DNA of 27,491 bases, from positions 1 through 27,491 of the forward strand of contig DDRH01000046.1 in NCBI GenBank assembly GCA_002343075.1, given 5' to 3'. The notes below the pieces were generated by a model. The model was given only the letters and a program-made list of their open reading frames with translations, searched no databases and was not told where the DNA came from. Positions 15,043-27,491 of the stretch are shown piece by piece. Source of the stretch: Phycisphaerales bacterium UBA2421 (GTDB taxonomy: Bacteria > Planctomycetota > Phycisphaerae > Tepidisphaerales > Tepidisphaeraceae). Within the stretch, counting starts at the first letter, position 1. Each line of letters begins with the position of its first letter. A program made the translations under genes and the position numbers.

Positions 15043-15548
15043 GCGCCGAACAACACCGCGCCTGCGGAAAGGCCATCGTGGCCCGCTGCGCCGTCGTCAC
15101 ACTCAGCGATACGCGCGACGAGTCAACCGATCGATCCGGCGCCGCCGTCAAAGCGGGGTTAGCCGCTGCCGGGCACGCCGTGGCGCATTACCAGATCATC
15201 AAGGATGAGCCTTCCGACCTGCGCGCCGTTCTCACCCAACTGCTCGCCCGCGATGACATTGATGCCGTCATTACCAACGGCGGCACGGGCATCGCGGCGC
15301 GCGACCAGACCATCCCCGTTGTTGAGTCAATCATCTCGCTCCCCCTGCCCGGCTTTGGCGAGTTGTTTCGCATGCTCAGCTACGAACAAGTCGGTGCCGC
15401 CGCCATGCTCAGTCGCGCCGTCGGCGGCGCGGTGAACAGCAAACTGCTGTTTGCCCTGCCCGGCAGCACCAAGGCGGTCGAACTTGCGATGCAAAAACTG
15501 ATCGGCCCCGAACTCGGCCACCTGATTAACCACCTTCGCAAGGCGTAA
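15039..15548 (+). CDS. moaB: Molybdenum cofactor biosynthesis protein MoaB/MogA family
   Basis: 169 aa from ATG 15039, overlapping the carrier stop. The molybdopterin-binding fold is clear: VVTLSDTRDESTDRSG near the start, DAVITNGGTGIAARDQT as the MPT-binding loop, GFGELFRMLSYEQVGAAAMLSRA, and LFALPGSTKAVELAM. The family adenylates molybdopterin (MogA) or is its MoaB paralogue. No other Moco genes are in the window. Coupling to an MFS gene may be only positional. tRNA-Glu follows 67 nt downstream. Confidence 0.9.
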   Translation: MSAEQHRACGKAIVARCAVVTLSDTRDESTDRSGAAVKAGLAAAGHAVAHYQIIKDEPSDLRAVLTQLLARDDIDAVITNGGTGIAARDQTIPVVESIISLPLPGFGELFRMLSYEQVGAAAMLSRAVGGAVNSKLLFALPGSTKAVELAMQKLIGPELGHLINHLRKA

Positions 15549-15570
15549 CGAAAACCCCACACGCGCCAAC

Positions 15571-15598
15571 TTGACGCCCGCCATCCATGCAATAAACT
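15571..15598 (+). promoter_or_regulatory. Probable sigma70-type promoter of tRNA-Glu
   Basis: TTGACG (15571-15576) and TAAACT (15593-15598) are separated by 16 bp. A start about 7 nt downstream would leave a leader of roughly 10 nt before the tRNA at 15616. The -35 matches consensus at five of six bases, the -10 at four of six. Confidence 0.45.
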
Positions 15599-15615
15599 TC
15601 ACGCTGGTCCTACAC

Positions 15616-15688
15616 GCCCCCATCGTCTAGTGGCCCAGGACATCTGGTTCTCAGCCAGAGAACAGGGGTTCGACTCCCCTTGGGGGTA
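15616..15688 (+). tRNA. tRNA-Glu (CTC)
   Basis: The cloverleaf can be drawn by eye. The acceptor is GCCCCCA with TGGGGGT (first pair G-T wobble) and discriminator A. The D arm contains the typical CGTCTAGTGGCCCAGGAC of glutamate tRNAs. The anticodon arm is TCTGG-TTCTCAG-CCAGA with anticodon CTC, and the T arm is GGGG-TTCGACT-CCCC. No CCA is encoded. Its 3' side marks the left edge of the repeat and cassette-like region. Confidence 0.95.
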
Positions 15689-15811
15689 CTCCGCGGCCCG
15701 CGAGAAACCCGGCCGCAATCGCCCCAAACGCCCCCGGCCGCAGCCCATGCCCCTGCGTGAGCAAGTTATTCCCTGGCTGCACCCGCCCCTCCCTTCCGCA
15801 GCCGCCTGAAT

Positions 15812-16001
15812 GACATCAACCAGCGCCCGAAATACGTCTTTCAGCGCCTAAAATACGTCTTTCAGCGCCTGAAATACGTCTTTCAGCGCCTGAAATACGT
15901 CCCGCAGCGACTAAAATACGTCTTTCAGCGGCTAAAATACGTCCCTCAGCCGCTGAAATACGTCCCGCAGCGGCTAAGGGACGTCTTTCTGTGGATGAAT
16001 T
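15812..16001. repeat. Tandem array of a 21-bp palindromic repeat, about 8-9 units
   Basis: Units begin with ACGT at 15834, 15855, 15876, 15897, 15918, 15939, 15960 and 15981, exactly 21 bp apart; a degenerate unit precedes them. The core of units 2 and 3 is TTTCAGCGCCTGAAA, a 6-bp inverted repeat around CGC. Unit 7 with the next ACGT forms ACGTCCC...GGGACGT. No unique spacers occur, so it is not a CRISPR. Because the period is a multiple of three, two plus frames stay open through most of it, but neither has an ATG or GTG start before the array. Confidence 0.85.
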
Positions 16002-16319
16002 CCGCCCGCTTTCTCGTGTAATCCGCCCGCAGAACGCTGATTCACGGGTTTTATGGGCGCGTCCCGATAACTGCGCCCAAGCCCAGCAGCGGACAAACGC
16101 GCCCGCCCCCGCCGGGCGAAGCCAACGAGCGACCCGGCCGCGCCAGATATCGCCCCCGCCCAGCCACGCCAGTCCAGATAACAGCCCGCCCCAACGCGCG
16201 TGCGACTACGCCAGCGGTTGACAGGCCAAGACTCTAGCGTCACGCTACCTACGGCGGTCGCGTCACGTTAATCGACGCGGGCGGTCGGGGGCATCGGTAT
16301 TTAGTTTGCGGGAGGACTC
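16002..16319. other. Gene-free stretch between repeat array and first cassette-like gene
   Basis: No convincing gene is seen. It contains a small palindrome TAGCGTCACGCTA and two copies of GCGTCACG, the second followed by GTTAATC (16267-16273). That last sequence might be the left boundary of the first cassette, but the paired arms expected of an attC site are not convincing upstream of it. GGGAGG at 16310-16315 is the ribosome-binding site of the next gene. Confidence 0.4.
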
Positions 16320-16796
16320 GTGAAGGGACAGCTGTCGGGAATGCGAGGCGTCTATCTCACCGCGGCGGAGTTGTCGCGGCTTGGCTTCATCGCCTCTCCA
16401 ACATCCCGCAGCGCGCTGGCAGCGGATATCCTCGTCACCGATCAGGCATGCCAGAGAGCACTCTCGGTCCAAGTGAAAACCAACTCGACCGCCGCGACCT
16501 TTTGGTTGGTCGGGAGGCACACGCCCGTTTCGGACACTCACGTTTACGTTTTGGTGAACCTTCAGTCCAAGGACGGCCCGGCGCCCGAGTATTTCGTCGT
16601 GCCGAGCAGCGTGGTGAAAGAGCGAACCGTCTACAGCAAGCACCCGAAGTCGGAGTTCTGGTCGGTTTACCGCAAGGACATTCTCGACTTCCGAGACAAG
16701 TGGGATGTGTTTGGCGATCCGCGAGCCGAACTTCAAGTCGAGGAAAAGAGCGTGTCGGATGAAGTCAGAACATCCGGCGATGCGGCCGCAGGCTAA
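16320..16796 (+). CDS. Small PD-(D/E)XK-like hypothetical protein (cassette-type gene)
   Basis: 158 aa from GTG 16320, with GGGAGG ending 4 nt before it. The layout is that of small restriction-endonuclease-fold proteins: helix GVYLTAAELSRLGF, then ADILVTD (candidate catalytic Asp), about ten residues later SVQVKTNS (the QxK half of the motif), then strands VYVLVNLQ and EYFVVPSSVV. Such proteins resemble Holliday-junction-resolvase-like or DUF4365-like nucleases; activity is unproven. The stop TAA lies within GGCTAAC, the first element of an attC-like site (16791-16890). Confidence 0.6.
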   Translation: MKGQLSGMRGVYLTAAELSRLGFIASPTSRSALAADILVTDQACQRALSVQVKTNSTAATFWLVGRHTPVSDTHVYVLVNLQSKDGPAPEYFVVPSSVVKERTVYSKHPKSEFWSVYRKDILDFRDKWDVFGDPRAELQVEEKSVSDEVRTSGDAAAG

Positions 16797-16890
16797 CCAA
16801 ACGAGGCAATGGACCGGCCCCGCGTTGAGCGTTGCGGTAGTGTGAAGCCGGGTAGTGCGGCGCCGGCCGTTGAACGTTGATCCGTTATCC
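16791..16890 (+). other. attC-like recombination site A (integron cassette type)
   Basis: The 5' element is GGCTAAC (16791-16797), containing the upstream gene's stop codon, and the 3' element is GTTATCC (16884-16890); they have RYYYAAC and GTT polarity. Inner arms CAATGGACCGGC (16807-16818) and GCCGGCCGTTG (16862-16872) pair with one T-G wobble and a single bulged A at 16813. In known attC sites an extrahelical base in the L'' arm orients recombination. Eleven bases lie between inner arm and GTT, the same as in site B. The first 26 bases match site B at 20 positions without gaps. Confidence 0.62.
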
Positions 16891-17520
16891 TGCCAAGTGA
16901 ACGCGAACATGGTGATCCTCAAGACCATCACTGCCGCCTCCGTTGCCAGCTTCAAGGCTGTGCGGTTGAGCGCGTTGAAGGACACCCCTTCGGCGTTCGG
17001 CTCCACCTTCGCAAAGGAGTCGCGATTGTCCGACGCGGATTGGCAGCGGCGTGTAGCGCAGTGGAACGGCGATCGATCGATCGGTCTGCTGGCCTGGGAC
17101 GGAGATCGCCCCTGCGGAATCGCCGCGGGCTTCCTGGATGAGGGGCAAACGACCAAGGCGCATCTGGTGTCGATGTGGGTCGCACCGTCGGATCGCGGGC
17201 GCGGCCTGGGCCGATTGCTTGTCGAAGGCATTATCGATTGGGCGTGCAACCGTCGCGCCGAGACGTTGTGCCTGATGGTTACGTCGAACAACGACGTTGC
17301 GACGCGCTTCTACGAGCGGTTAGGCTTCAGGAAGACTGGCCGGACAGAACCGTACCCGAATGATCCCACACTGGCGGAGTTCGAGATGGCCCGGGCCATC
17401 GGACAGACTGCCGACCCGACGGCGGGATAACCCGCCGATGCAGTGGACCGTGCCGGCGGGTGAGCTGCTTGTGGTTCAAGAGCCGGCACGGTGCCGGCCC
17501 GGCCGGTGATGGGCATTACG
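16885..17520 (+). mobile_element. Candidate integron gene cassette carrying the GNAT gene
   Basis: Bounded by the cleavage points predicted between G and TT in site A (after 16884) and site B (after 17520). In a true cassette the first bases must pair with the R'' element near its own stop codon. Here GTTATCC (16884-16890) is the exact reverse complement of GGATAAC (17425-17431). The cassette holds one promoterless-looking ORF in the usual orientation. No integrase gene is present in the window. Confidence 0.55.
16909..17430 (+). CDS. GNAT-family N-acetyltransferase (cassette gene)
   Basis: 173 aa from ATG 16909, 18 nt after site A. The GNAT acetyl-CoA motif A is clear (HLVSMWVAPSDRGRGLGRLL, with the RGRGLG pyrophosphate loop), followed by motif B region NDVATRFYERLGFRKTG. 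The N-terminal part (VASFKAVRLSALKDTPSAFG) is common in stand-alone acetyltransferases often annotated as acting on small amines or antibiotics. The substrate cannot be inferred. GNAT genes are among the most frequent cargo of integron cassettes. The stop TAA is inside GGATAAC, the start of site B. Confidence 0.86.
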   Translation: MVILKTITAASVASFKAVRLSALKDTPSAFGSTFAKESRLSDADWQRRVAQWNGDRSIGLLAWDGDRPCGIAAGFLDEGQTTKAHLVSMWVAPSDRGRGLGRLLVEGIIDWACNRRAETLCLMVTSNNDVATRFYERLGFRKTGRTEPYPNDPTLAEFEMARAIGQTADPTAG

Positions 17521-17526
17521 TTTCCG
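17425..17526 (+). other. attC-like recombination site B
   Basis: The 5' element is GGATAAC (17425-17431), overlapping the GNAT stop; the 3' boundary is GTTTCCG (17520-17526). Inner arms CAGTGGACCG (17441-17450) and CGGCCGGTG (17500-17508) pair with a bulged A at 17447, the same position as in site A, and again 11 nt separate the arm from GTT. The variable centre holds strong inverted repeats: CCGTGCCGGC (17448-17457) with GCCGGCACGG (17482-17491), and GCCGGCAC-G-GTGCCGGC (17482-17498). Confidence 0.58.
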
Positions 17527-17561: not shown

Positions 17562-18029
17562 ATGGCCAATTCTATCCGCACCTGTCTTTGGTTTCGCGAC
17601 GGGCGGGGGCGTGAAGCGGCTGAGTTTTACTGTGCCTTGATTCCAGGAAGCCGGGTTGAGAAGTCATTTCACGGCGACGCGGGGCATGGCGCGTTCTCGG
17701 TCATCGATTTCTCGCTCGGCGGGGTGCCCTACCAGATTCTCGACGCCGGGCCGACATTCACCATGACCGAAGCGGTGTCGATTTCAGTAGCGACCGACGA
17801 CCAGGCCGAGGCCGATCGCCTCAATGCCGCCCTGACCGCCGACGGAGGTACGCAGAGCCACTGTGGGTGGCTGAAAGACCGCTACGGTGTGTCGTGGCAG
17901 ATTTTTCCGAAACGGCTGACGGAGTTGACGATGAGCGCCGACAGGGAAGTGGCTGCCAGGGCGATGGCGGCGATGATGAAGCAAATGAGAATCGACATTG
18001 CCGCGATCGAAGCCGCGGTTGGCGGTTGA
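17562..18029 (+). CDS. PhnB-like VOC superfamily protein
   Basis: 155 aa from ATG 17562, with GAGGAG at 17549-17554. It belongs to the PhnB / 3-demethylubiquinone-9 3-methyltransferase-like (PF06983) group: TCLWFRDGRGREAAEFY, FSVIDFSLGGVPYQILDAGP, then WLKDRYGVSWQIFPKRL. The C-terminal tail (AARAMAAMMKQMRIDIAAIE) is the usual helix of the family. The VOC fold supports metal-dependent enzymes or binding proteins, including resistance proteins; the function here is unknown. It follows site B in the same orientation and is another common cassette cargo, but no attC-like site is recognisable after its stop. Confidence 0.85.
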   Translation: MANSIRTCLWFRDGRGREAAEFYCALIPGSRVEKSFHGDAGHGAFSVIDFSLGGVPYQILDAGPTFTMTEAVSISVATDDQAEADRLNAALTADGGTQSHCGWLKDRYGVSWQIFPKRLTELTMSADREVAARAMAAMMKQMRIDIAAIEAAVGG

Positions 18030-18228
18030 ATTTGCAGAGGGACGCCGCAAATCAAAGCCGGCGGCGAAGGCGCGTTCGAGGGGAGACCATTGAGTCGAAT
18101 CCACATGGAACGTGAACAAGTCTGGGCGGTTGCGCGTTTGTTTGACGGGTTGCCGCGCGGTTCCGCGTTGAGACCCCCCGACCGCGGCGGATAGATCTGT
18201 GCGCGGTGTTTTGTTTCAAACGTGAGAA
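18030..18228. other. Intergenic region between PhnB-like gene and lepA
   Basis: About 200 bp between convergent genes with no ORF that I can support. A short inverted pair ATTTGC...GCAAAT lies just after the PhnB-like stop. A stretch GCAGAGGGACG resembles the inner arm of the attC-like sites, but the flanking elements are missing, so it is at most a decayed site. Confidence 0.3.
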
Positions 18229-20031
18229 CTACTCCCCGCTTTCAAGAATCGCCATGAACGCTTCCTGCGGGATATCGACGCTGCCGACGCGCTTCATGCG
18301 CTTTTTGCCCTCTTTCTGCTTTTCGAGGAGCTTGCGCTTGCGCGTCACGTCGCCGCCGTAGCATTTTGCGGTGACGTTCTTGCCGACGCTCTTGATGGTT
18401 TCCCGGGCGATGATCTTCCCGCCGATGGCGGCTTGCAGGGGAATCTCAAACAGGTGGCGGTCGATTTCTTCCTTCAGCCGCACAAGCAGTTTCCGCGCGC
18501 GCGCCTCGGCGGTGCTGCGATGAACGATGACGCTCAGCGCATCAACCCGGTCGCCATTCACCAGGATATCGACCTTCACCAGTTCGCCGTGACGAAAACC
18601 GATGAAATCGAAATCCATCGTGCCATAGCCCTTGGTGGCGCTCTTCAGGCGATCGTAAAAGTCGTAGATGACTTCGGCGAGCGGCATTTCGTAGGTGAGC
18701 ATGACGCGCGTCGAGCCGATGTATTCAGTCTTCTGATACACCCCCCGGCGGTCTTCGCAGAGCTTCATCATGTTGCCCACCGTGTCGCCGGGCAGGATGA
18801 GGTTCATCTTGATGAACGGCTCGCGAATCTCTTCGACGTTGGTGGGGTTGGGCAACTGGCTTGGCGAGTCAATTCGCAGCACCTTGCCGTCAGTCTGCTT
18901 GATTTCATAAGTCACCGTCGGTGCGGTCTGGATCATGTCGATGTTAAACTCGCGTTCCAGCCGCTCCTGGATAATCTCCATGTGAAGTAAACCGAGGAAC
19001 CCGCAGCGGAAGCCGAATCCGAGCGCGTCATTGCTCTCTGGTTCAAAGCTGAAGCTGCTGTCGTTGAGGCTGAGCCGGTCCATCGCATCGCGCAGCTCGT
19101 CATATTGCGTCTTGCCGCTGGGGTAGAAATCGCAGTAGACCATCTGCTGGCTGGGCTTATATCCGGGCAGGGCCTCGGCGGCTTTGTTGTCGTCATCGGT
19201 CACGGTGTCGCCGATCCGGACGTCGTGCAGGTCTTTAATCGCAGCGACGATGTAACCGACCTCGCCGGTGCCGATGCGCTGTACCTGCGTCGGCCGGGGT
19301 GTGAGCTTGCCGAGATCGGTCACCTGGTACTGTTTATCCGTGCCCATGAAGCGGATCTTCTGCCCCTTGCGAATCTCGCCATCCATCACACGCACATAGG
19401 TAATCACGCCGCGGTAATCGTCGTAGATGCTATCGAAAATCAGGGCGCGCGTCGGTGCTTCTGGGTTGCCACGGGGCGCGGGAAGCTGGTCGCAGAGCTT
19501 GGCGATGAGTTCATCGATCCCTTTTCCCGTCTTTGCCGACACCTCAATCGCATCTTCCGCGGCGAATCCCAGCACCTGCTCGATTTCCTCGGCCACCACG
19601 ATCGGCTGGGCGGAAGGAAGATCGATCTTGTTAATGACCGGAATAATCTCCAGCCCCACCTCGATCGCGGCGTAGGCGTTGGCGACCGTCTGCGCCTGCA
19701 CGCCCTGGGTCGCATCCACCACCAGAATCGCCCCTTCGCACGCCTGCAGCGCTTTCTGCACTTCGTAATGAAAATCGACATGGCCGGGCGTGTCGATGAA
19801 ATTCAGCATGAACTTCTCGATCCGCCCGTCGGGCATCTTGTGATCGTGAAACACGGTGACGGCGCTGGCCTTGATCGTAATGCCGCGCTCGCGCTCGAGG
19901 TCCATGTCGTCAAGCATCTGGCTCTGAAACTCGCGCTCGGTGATTGCACCGGCGCGCATCAGCAGGCGGTCGGAGAGGGTGCTCTTGCCGTGGTCAATAT
20001 GGGCGATGATCGAGAAGTTGCGAATCTGCAT
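18229..20031 (-). CDS. lepA: Elongation factor 4 (LepA)
   Basis: 600 aa, the normal length. It starts [18 protein letters not shown], with the P-loop immediately at the N-terminus as in LepA. Switch [10 protein letters not shown] and G4 NKIDLPSA follow, then [22 protein letters not shown] (domain III), and the LepA-specific C-terminal domain near [19 protein letters not shown]. LepA is a ribosomal GTPase that acts on stalled or assembling ribosomes. The gene stands alone on the minus strand, convergent with the cassette region. Confidence 0.97.
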
Positions 20032-24821: not shown

Positions 24822-27491
24822 TCAAGTATTGTCGCGCTGATCATGCTCTCTCAGCATTGCGCTGACAAGAGTTGAGAGTTCGGCCGCCTCAAGCTGCGTC
24901 CGTTGTTCGCGGGGGGTGTCCGGGAACAACTCGAACCACTTGTCGATGATCCAGGCTCGGTCTGAAAGATGTGACTTCCAATCTTGCGGCACGTCCGAAG
25001 GCATCTCTGGAGTCATGTTGGCTAGAGACGCCTCAAGCTGTTCTATTTCCTGGTCGCTCGTTGAAGGGGATATAGTCCGCCGACCCCGCTTTTGATACAG
25101 TTGCTCGTGGAGTTCCATCGCTTTGGCAAGGCGTGCGTTGTAGTGTGGATTTAGTTTGCGCCTCAGCGTTGGATTGAGGAGTTTCGATATCTGTGACTGA
25201 TCCGGCAGCCCGATTGCGTCCGCGAGCGCTTTGCGGTTGCCGAACCACTTTCTCTTGCCGAGCAAGAGCGCCATTGCACATCGTTCCACCGTCGTGAACG
25301 AAATCGAAGTAGTGCCGTCTGCGCGGTCTCCCACCGCTGGCCTCTGTGTTGGTGTAACCGATTCCTCCTCAAACCTCCCCACCTTCCCCGTAACCCTCAT
25401 CATTTCCAGCCCGATCTGCGCTACGAAATCGTCCTGTTGCTTCGCCGTCCCGCCGATGACGCGGGCATGAACCTGCGCTTCGTTCAGGTCGACTGTCAGC
25501 AGTGCCTCCACCCCTTCAGCTACGCCGCAGCGGACGACGATCCGGTCGCGCCGTATGGTCTGCGACAATGCCGCCCCATCGGAGACGTACATCTTTCCCG
25601 TCAGTGTCGCGTAAGCGTGTCCGATGAACTGCGGCAAATGTGAATCCAGCAGCATGTCGAGCTGCAAAAACCACTTTCGCGCGGCGTTGAATTTACGCTC
25701 CTGATTCTCCTTGATCTCGTGATCGTCTTCATCCGCGACGTCCAATGGCTTGAGCCGATCCACGATCAGATACTTCTCCTTGTTCGCGTGCGCATACGGG
25801 AAGACCAGCCTTTGCCACTTCAATAGCTCAAGCACCTGTTCCGCCCACGTCTCGTTATCGCTCAGTTGCTTCGTGAGTTCCTCGATCAGCACGTCTCGGG
25901 TCGCCACGCCCATCTTCTGGTCAAAATGCCCCGTGCGGATCAGGTGGTACGTCGGTGCCTTGAGCCACTCCACACCGAACACCAGGCCCCGCAGCTGTCG
26001 CAGGTTGGCGGGGTCATCGGTCGGGGGCTTCAGGCGGGCGCCGATCTCCGCGCCACTGGATCGTGCTTCTTCGTCCTTCCGGTCGCTCGCGTCCAGTTCC
26101 GGGCAGATCGCCAGACCGATGTTACGCAGCAGACCAATGCCTACGTCACTCGTCTTGTCGATCGGGTCCTGCGTGCGATCAAAAAACGCCTCGCGTACCG
26201 CCTGCATCGTCATCGGCCCGGCGTCCAGCAAAGACTTCTTCGGTTTGCTCTCCTCATCCAGCGAATCGAAATCTGCGATGGCGGCTTTGAATCCCGGGGC
26301 ATAGCCGCTGTCCAGTTCCGCGTGCTGCATCTTCACCATGTCGCGAATTGCATCCCGTACGGCTTCCAGGCGTTCGTCGTACTTCAGGTCGCCCGCCGTC
26401 TTCCCTTCGTCGGGGTCCCAGTATCGGTCGACCACGATCGCTTGAAGGGGTCTGTGTTTCTGCTTGATCGACTCCGCCACCCCTTCTTTGCTTGCGAAGT
26501 CTGCATGCACCTCTTTGTCACACCACGACAACAGCACCGTCGTCGGGGGGATCACCGCGCGGGGCTTCTGGTCTTGTTCAGTTTCGTGGAAGACGCCGTA
26601 CGCCCGCACGACCCTCATCCAGTAGTCGAGCAGGCTCTGGCCGCGCGATTCGGACGCGTTGCACACCGCGAGATAACAGTTCCGCTTGTCGCTGAGGAAC
26701 GTCGAATGCGCACCATGTAAATCGGGGTCGCCTCCCAGATCGTGCACCCGGACGAAGATCGTCCGATTCTTCGGTCCGACGCCTTCCATCCGCAAAATGC
26801 CACTCTCCCACGCCTGCGTCTTGGGCGGCTTCCTGAAAGGCGGCTTGAAGATCAGCCTGCGGAACAGGTGCGACTTGCCGATCTCCTTTCGGCCGAGCAC
26901 GGTCGCGCGAATCCAGTCGACCGTCTCGCTGGTGACGACGGTCGTTTTCGCTCCGGTTCGCTTGTCCACCACGGTCTCGGGCATCAGCCTGCGCAGCTCC
27001 GCCAGCAGCTTCACCGGGTCTCTCTCCGACAGCACCTCCGGAGGCACGCGGATCGGCTCCCCGCCGGGCACCGCAAAAGCCAGCGGATTCCCGCTGACCT
27101 GAATCTCCTCCAGCTTCCCGCCGGGGCGGAGCCTTTCGATCAGGTCGACGATCACCTGCGCGTCGCGGATGGAGTTGCGGCCGATGTTGAGCGTGTGGAG
27201 GCCGGTCAGGCCGGGGCAACCCTCCAGCGCCCCGGCGATCGCCTTGGCCCCTTCCTCGCCGATGGAGTTGTTCCAGATGTCGAGCGTGTGGAGGCCCGTC
27301 AGGCCGGGGCAACCCTCCAGCGCCCCGGCGATCGCCTTCGCCCCTTCGTCGCCGATGGAGTTGTTGGCGATGTCGAGCGTGTGGAGGCCGGTCAGGCCGG
27401 GGCAACCCTCCAGCGCCCCGGCGATCGCCTTCGCCCCTTCCTCGCCGATGGAGTTGTAGCCGATGTCGAGCGTGTGGAGGCCGGTCAGGCC
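24822..27491 (-). CDS. LRR-Roc-COR (Roco family) protein, 5' end outside the window
   Basis: 889 residues are visible; the frame is open to the right edge, so an internal GTG at 27155 is not the true start. Order: at least 3.5 leucine-rich repeats of 31 aa, a short linker, then a Ras-of-complex GTPase domain with P-loop GRKEIGKS (26894..26871) and switch II HDLGGD. The COR domain follows, with LLRNIGLAICPE, WLKAPTYHLIRTGHF, RLVFPYAHANKEKYLIV and LDSHLPQFIGHAY. A C-terminal extension of about 190 residues comes last. The G4 position reads LLSWCDKE instead of NKxD. The extension contains KALADAIGLPDQSQISKLL, which has helix-turn-helix character. Bacterial Roco proteins are dimeric GTPases whose LRRs sense unknown ligands; prokaryotic roles are mostly unknown. 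Confidence 0.85.
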   Translation of the reverse strand, partial: GLTGLHTLDIGYNSIGEEGAKAIAGALEGCPGLTGLHTLDIANNSIGDEGAKAIAGALEGCPGLTGLHTLDIWNNSIGEEGAKAIAGALEGCPGLTGLHTLNIGRNSIRDAQVIVDLIERLRPGGKLEEIQVSGNPLAFAVPGGEPIRVPPEVLSERDPVKLLAELRRLMPETVVDKRTGAKTTVVTSETVDWIRATVLGRKEIGKSHLFRRLIFKPPFRKPPKTQAWESGILRMEGVGPKNRTIFVRVHDLGGDPDLHGAHSTFLSDKRNCYLAVCNASESRGQSLLDYWMRVVRAYGVFHETEQDQKPRAVIPPTTVLLSWCDKEVHADFASKEGVAESIKQKHRPLQAIVVDRYWDPDEGKTAGDLKYDERLEAVRDAIRDMVKMQHAELDSGYAPGFKAAIADFDSLDEESKPKKSLLDAGPMTMQAVREAFFDRTQDPIDKTSDVGIGLLRNIGLAICPELDASDRKDEEARSSGAEIGARLKPPTDDPANLRQLRGLVFGVEWLKAPTYHLIRTGHFDQKMGVATRDVLIEELTKQLSDNETWAEQVLELLKWQRLVFPYAHANKEKYLIVDRLKPLDVADEDDHEIKENQERKFNAARKWFLQLDMLLDSHLPQFIGHAYATLTGKMYVSDGAALSQTIRRDRIVVRCGVAEGVEALLTVDLNEAQVHARVIGGTAKQQDDFVAQIGLEMMRVTGKVGRFEEESVTPTQRPAVGDRADGTTSISFTTVERCAMALLLGKRKWFGNRKALADAIGLPDQSQISKLLNPTLRRKLNPHYNARLAKAMELHEQLYQKRGRRTISPSTSDQEIEQLEASLANMTPEMPSDVPQDWKSHLSDRAWIIDKWFELFPDTPREQRTQLEAAELSTLVSAMLREHDQRDNT
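27171..27491 (-). repeat. Tandem 93-bp LRR-coding repeats
   Basis: Units 27171-27263, 27264-27356, 27357-27449 and a partial unit from 27450 share period 93 bp (31 codons). By eye neighbouring units differ at about five bases. The protein unit is LTGLHTLDIxxNSIG followed by xEGAKAIAGALEGCPG. The two xx codons before the conserved Asn (GY, AN, WN, GR) carry most of the differences; several others are synonymous. Confidence 0.9.

Follow-up and report, generated by a model that had tools for sequence, protein, structure and literature searches.

The window analysed here is the entire contig C67 (27,491 bases) of a host genome assembled in 67 contigs (4.47 Mb, 91% complete). Between a tRNA-Glu gene and lepA lie three plus-strand genes, ORF1, a GNAT acetyltransferase gene and a VOC/PhnB-like gene, and with them two attC sites, A and B (Table 1). 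An earlier note on this DNA had proposed GNAT and PhnB/VOC-type cargo, and the Pfam matches bear out both. The same note had called ORF1 small nuclease-like, a label that we found unsupported, as neither Pfam nor NCBIfam gave a match. Tandem units of 21 bases, about eight or more (e.g. CGCCTGAAATACGTCTTTCAG), occupy window positions 15782-16012 between the tRNA gene and the cluster. At the contig end, an ORF (27169-27459) encodes near-identical peptide units in series, which suggests a tandem repeat in the DNA there.

Table 1. Features of the window (positions on contig C67; a slash marks a recombination junction)
Feature	Positions	Strand	Remarks
tRNA-Glu	15616-15689		left of the cassette cluster
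Predicted attI-like left end	16281-16304	+	junction 16304/16305, TATTTAG/TTTGCGG; weak
Cassette 1	16305-16884	+	left boundary predicted; right boundary at the G/TT of site A
ORF1	16320-16796	+	158 aa; GTG start; no known family
attC site A	16791-16890	+	R1 69.0 bits, E 3.8e-18; nhmmer 52.8 bits; extrahelical A at 16813
Cassette 2	16885-17520	+	636 bases; G/TT at both ends; own R'/R'' complementarity 7/7
GNAT acetyltransferase gene	16909-17430	+	173 aa; PF00583, E 7.5e-17
attC site B	17425-17525	+	R1 63.8 bits, E 1.4e-16; nhmmer 63.5 bits; extrahelical A at 17447
VOC/PhnB-like gene	17562-18029	+	PF06983, E 7.5e-31; candidate cluster member, 3' of the last attC
lepA	18229-20031	-	right of the cassette cluster

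Our covariance model, R1, was built from eight intI-adjacent attC of three other genera (genomes G012, G019 and G020), contains no host-genome sequence and is separate from the model of IntegronFinder. The intI-adjacent attC-like sites and arrays had first been picked by a simple scanner, on contig C3 of the host genome and in G019, G012 and G020. In the R1 alignment both sides had changed in 9 of 23 pairs, and 93.5% of cells were paired as against 20.8-43.8% in slid versions. The earlier note had named a covariance-model search as a check, and R1 matches both sites (Table 1); beyond them, under default filters and up to E 10, the window holds a single further match (16.7 bits), which is the palindromic echo of site A. 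A sequence-only nhmmer profile of 34 other sites, 13 from the host genome and 21 from relatives, recovers A and B alone from the window, with the next match at E 1.

The coordinates first proposed for the two sites hold, as do their 20/26 match across the first 26 bases, the bulged A at an equal position in both (R1 model position 23) and the spacing of 11 bases from L' to GTT. RYYYAAC-like 5' elements containing a TAA stop had also been claimed. The stops do lie within the R'' boxes, at the ends of ORF1 (16796, site A) and of the GNAT gene (17430, site B), but the boxes themselves, GGCTAAC in A and GGATAAC in B, depart from a strict RYYYAAC. Complementary inner arms are present in both sites, though only in part in B, whose inner stem contains mismatched pairs; the R' of B is also shorter by one base (GTT-TCC). 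Relative to shuffles, the folding energy of site A is ordinary (z -0.40 and -0.26), and that of site B offers moderate support (z -2.41 and -2.13). Both sites possess R''/R' boxes with G/TT, L''/L' arms and an extrahelical base, and through R1 both show homology to intI-adjacent attC. A and B are genuine attC and, with 534 bases between them and no neighbouring integrase, form a CALIN. The window contig does not constitute a complete integron: it is without intI, as the earlier note had observed, the genome's intI being on contig C3.

When a cassette circle is inserted, the R' at the cassette's 5' end derives from that cassette's own attC. The GNAT cassette pairs its own GGATAAC exactly with GTTATCC, scoring 7 as opposed to 4 for the adjacent R', and this exact complementarity is the signature of a captured circle. 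With G/TT junctions in addition to the matching own R'/R'', the GNAT unit is a gene cassette, and in the window it alone has both ends demonstrated. Across 30 consecutive cassettes, namely those with an AAC-ending R'' plus a readable R', the R'' fitted the own R' exactly in 17, the window's GNAT cassette among them (mean 6.27 of 7), and the adjacent R' in five (mean 5.47 of 7). The own-R' sum was reached by none of 20,000 permutations, the adjacent-R' sum by 1.8%. Matches to the GNAT protein are patchy, occurring in 10 of 61 genomes (E<=1e-10, host genome counted), and a homologue in G002, 37% identical, is likewise flanked by two attC of the same type.

ORF1 has 1348 relatives at E<=0.001 among 1431 candidate proteins, and in the 120 listed the legible names all read 'hypothetical protein'; many of these come from contigs of about 1 kb. 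A comparison with solved structures yielded nothing convincing (best E 0.14), and among the 61 genomes ORF1 matches are patchy, with three genomes at E<=0.001, host genome included. The ORF1 cassette lacks the own-R'/R'' agreement seen for GNAT: at the predicted left end, R' matches the R'' of site A in 5 of 7 positions by an eye count, and the exact GTTAGCC, the own R' for GGCTAAC, is absent within 1500 bases upstream of ORF1. The predicted junction at 16304, 16 bases before the GTG of ORF1, ranked sixth of the 776 GTT in the window by a profile of cluster left ends, or heads, made without the host genome (see below), and first of the 19 plus-strand GTT of 15291-16691. Because an nhmmer head search gave no match there at E<=1, we term this head predicted. 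An alternative left boundary for ORF1, at 16267, was dropped at profile rank 627/776. A decayed third attC behind the VOC gene, seen by eye at about 18029-18110, was likewise discarded, as R1 with filters off gave no plus-strand match there and nhmmer no match.

ORF1, GNAT, VOC and MoaB were absent 3' of lepA in 18 same-family relatives (tblastn E<=1e-6), these being 18 of the 23 other genomes with a lepA match, each read over 2-12 kb. R1 found no attC downstream of lepA in these relatives except for one match at E 0.42. Constant joint conservation of the three genes, with unvarying boundaries, was the pattern that the earlier note had named as speaking against its proposal, and these relatives do not show it. 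A comparison of empty sites at lepA was dropped, the 18 relatives having no alignable synteny.

The sole TIGR02249 match above cut-off in the host genome is a full-length intI at C3:982-1953 (352.6 bits; cut-off 265). R1 gave 18 attC matches on ten contigs of this genome (E<=1), two of them adjoining the C3 intI. As confirmation the earlier note had asked for hits at both sites and for an intI or more attC nearby; the genome has the intI, on a different contig, and 16 attC matches in addition to A and B. Five attC places are contig-internal (C47, C52, C62 twice and C67), and the clusters on C42 and C57 have their own head 78 bases inside the contig end. Near contig ends lie the attC of C3, C15 and C46; on C15 and C46 an exact own R' stands 18-19 bases from the edge, so a head is unreadable there. 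Both C42 and C57 break off 78 bases to the left of the junction at the head, and the first 24 bases of C48 belong to this sequence too; the assembly seems to have been interrupted by the head repeat. On C3 itself (locus L017, 665-844, minus strand), a very small cassette, some 180 bases long, separates attI from the first cassette with a gene. It is apparently an attC alone, with exact agreement between its own R' and R''.

IntI binds attC as a folded bottom strand, which it joins either to attI or to a second attC. Since the recombination parts lie on different contigs in the host genome, we infer that the enzyme would work in trans: excision may proceed by attC x attC recombination on the folded bottom strand, and capture by attI x attC recombination, in each case with IntI supplied from elsewhere. 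Our reading of the locus, to which we give a probability of roughly 0.8, is a CALIN whose two attC bound the GNAT cassette and on which the intI of another contig would likely act in trans.

We surveyed 61 genomes, the host and 60 others, of which 26 belong to the same family and 35 lie outside it. An intI (TIGR02249) above cut-off occurred in four of the 61. R1 at E<=0.001 had matches in 12 genomes, all within the same-family 26; under stricter filters, the 35 genomes outside the family gave none at this threshold. The genome G012, assembled as one contig of 7.19 Mb, carries 20 attC (E<=0.01) at 12 places, counted by grouping sites within 4 kb, and one of these places adjoins intI. G007, G010 and G021, each at least 91% complete, have 25, 18 and 38 attC and no match to the host IntI at E<=1e-15, and clusters therefore appear to outlive the integrase. 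Eight attC-bearing genomes are without an above-cut-off intI, and three of these have some match (fragments in G025 and G002; 33% in G014).

To describe how such clusters begin, we collected 70 of them, each without intact intI on the stretch read, from the best 150 of 192 attC matches; weaker attC may precede some of the 'first' sites. Among the sources G012 alone is complete and, as most clusters come from fragmented genomes, 'remote' here means that no intact intI was seen on the stretch read. Host contigs C15, C46 and C61 fall outside these sources. An AAC-ending R'' is present in 58 of the 70 remote clusters and missing in 12. An exact own R' was found 100-1500 bases upstream in 35 of the 58, against a mean of 11.3 and a maximum of 21 with permuted R'' (1000 runs). 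It was missing in the other 23, and the left end is unlocated in 35 of the 70 overall. One own-R' match lying 33 bases upstream, at L118, which had been counted in an earlier tally of 12/18, is held spurious; the minimum distance was later set at 100 bases.

The heads were scored with a profile of 24 bases and fixed width that excluded the R' box and was trained on other genomes only (leave-one-genome-out). A fixed width was adopted because a mixed left-only nhmmer profile proved too weak: without R', the mixed-head profile was not significant, and two controls equalled its third-best match. Across all 35 junctions, L117, L283, L029, L259, L233 and L271 included, 24 located left ends outranked every other GTT of their locus, where 0.44 were expected and 40 null runs gave a mean of 0.45 and a maximum of 2. 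The other 11 ranked lower, five of them at 22nd or worse. The same profile placed intI-adjacent sites high (1/212, 1/161, 2/515, 8/539 and 28/552, the last and lowest being the host genome's own), from which it follows that the heads resemble attI. The minimum core of attI2 quoted in an excerpt of PMC12901181, AATAAAATGTTRRRY, is built like such heads as GAATAAGATG/TTATGC. Some left junctions (L117, L283 and L029) come after a weak or decayed attC, and in several last sites the R' box retains TTAT past the G.

Heads are also copied within genomes. A head sequence of about 80 bases occurs at four places in the host genome, the query and three copies at 90-94%, and two head copies there share about 570 bases at 76%. 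Such within-genome copies extend into the flank by about 78-126 bases or more and are non-independent. A junction-adjacent stretch in G012 is common to five places, query included, all at most 1.9 kb from an attC. One head copy in this genome (L114, G012:C1:163097-163527), with no attC detected downstream nearby, is possibly an empty docking site. We discarded 650 bases common to the upstream regions of two G012 clusters, as they proved largely a mosaic of chromosome-wide short repeats in a check that scored 40 of 169 first-look candidates; this genome holds many further short dispersed repeats.

Upstream of the clusters, IntI fragments (E<=0.05) were detected at six loci, equal to 7 of the 70 stretches since one fragment is common to two clusters; at two of these loci the match is weak (E 6.6e-5 and 0.002). 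The other 63 upstream stretches are without a fragment. At three loci the fragment starts 132-136 bases from the junction; in four intact platforms the IntI model starts 138, 141, 169 and 178 bases from it. One of the three loci, L235, runs off its contig, and its gene may be whole.

The usual picture of an integron is a single platform carrying a single array. The CALINs of this lineage look like integrons without intI but with attI kept, the window itself being one ordinary-looking member among them, and a single enzyme likely serves, or served, docking points around the chromosome. We tentatively suggest, as a possibility still open to considerable doubt, that the integron of this Phycisphaerae family is distributed, with one IntI and, across the chromosome, orphan attI that each hold a small set of cassettes, persisting and multiplying after intI loss. 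In the most economical history, the clusters would have arisen as copies of an integron platform in which intI was lost and attI and cassettes were kept; the head of the window's own cluster would be that at 16304.

The cluster could instead be a fragment of a single large chromosomal integron, rearranged away from intI and without an attI of its own. We regard this as rather unlikely, even though the host genome has only one above-cut-off intI, the attC of C3, C15 and C46 sit by contig ends, possible breakpoints of an array, and weak or decayed attC precede the junctions L117, L283 and L029. The five contig-internal places and the two with their own head in the host genome, together with the 12 places in the complete relative G012, argue for a dispersed arrangement, and many clusters start at an attI-like sequence that pieces from mid-array would lack.

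Insertion of single cassette circles by IntI at secondary chromosomal sites (attG or attI-like) would draw on an IntI that the host genome does possess and would fit the single cassettes that exist with exact own-R' left junctions. An excerpt of PMC12444791 cites attG insertion, and one of PMC10127599 deals with reactions at secondary sites. Even so, heads are alike across genera, over tens of bases that sites hit at random would not have in common; within genomes they are copied together with their flanks; and the TTAT retained beyond the G of R' in several last sites points the same way. We therefore consider this explanation improbable, and random attG insertion as a general explanation is set back by the shared heads. 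That A and B are ordinary stem-loops, such as terminators or REP-like repeats, is hardly credible. The ordinary folding energy of site A and the abundance of other short dispersed repeats in G012 would suit it, but covariation, the exact box layout and the confinement of matches to one family among 61 genomes all oppose it, as does the place of site A at the join of two genes, with the circle signature.

Loot et al. (2024) reportedly observed cassettes inserted at attG. Such insertions resemble our clusters in that cassettes lie outside the integron, with IntI, as would be likely here too, acting in trans; the left ends here share extended attI-like sequence. CALINs as treated in the available parts of PMC9024848 and PMC12444791 likewise have at least two attC and no neighbouring intI; many clusters here differ in keeping an attI-like head, and the host genome has a full intI elsewhere. 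In Xanthomonas, CALINs also occupy chromosomal loci apart from the intI locus, at seven loci among well-sampled species according to the same part of PMC12444791, whereas here a single chromosome has 12 places and the heads resemble attI. Planctomycetes-type attC have a taxon-specific covariance model (Ghaly et al. 2021, PMC8352920, in excerpt) and are alike within the taxon, as ours are alike within one Phycisphaerae family. The excerpt of PMC12901181 describes truncated attI within unusual cassettes of mobile integrons, which resemble the present case in that pieces of attI lie off their usual intI-adjacent place. There, attI replaces attC 3' of a gene in an intI-bearing array, whereas here it heads integrase-less clusters.

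Since degradation of integrons into CALINs (PMC9024848), off-locus CALINs (PMC12444791), the common occurrence of intI pseudogenes together with duplication inside genomes (PMC2426708) and attI-like secondary sites, said to be frequent across genomes (PMC10127599), are all in print, as far as the excerpts of these papers go, the decay part of our proposal is to be expected. Among the matches listed in our literature search, mainly non-subscription and partly in excerpt, there was no description of attI-headed dispersed CALINs, and the same search found no paper on Phycisphaerae with attC. What this search did not turn up is so many places on a single chromosome and the attI-like heads that they share. 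A lineage in which one chromosome bears about a dozen small clusters, many with attI-like heads and most lacking intI, would mean that docking sites need not stay tied to the gene for the integrase; it would account for the origin of many CALINs and would bring captured genes into many chromosomal contexts.

Attachment sites of the Phycisphaerae type also turned up under another name. Four of them lie on a 6.6 kb contig (L143, CADDYU010000222.1) assigned to 'Methylococcaceae bacterium isolate 8', along with an IntI 68% identical to that of the host genome; this is probably a misbinned contig, or else a case of transfer.
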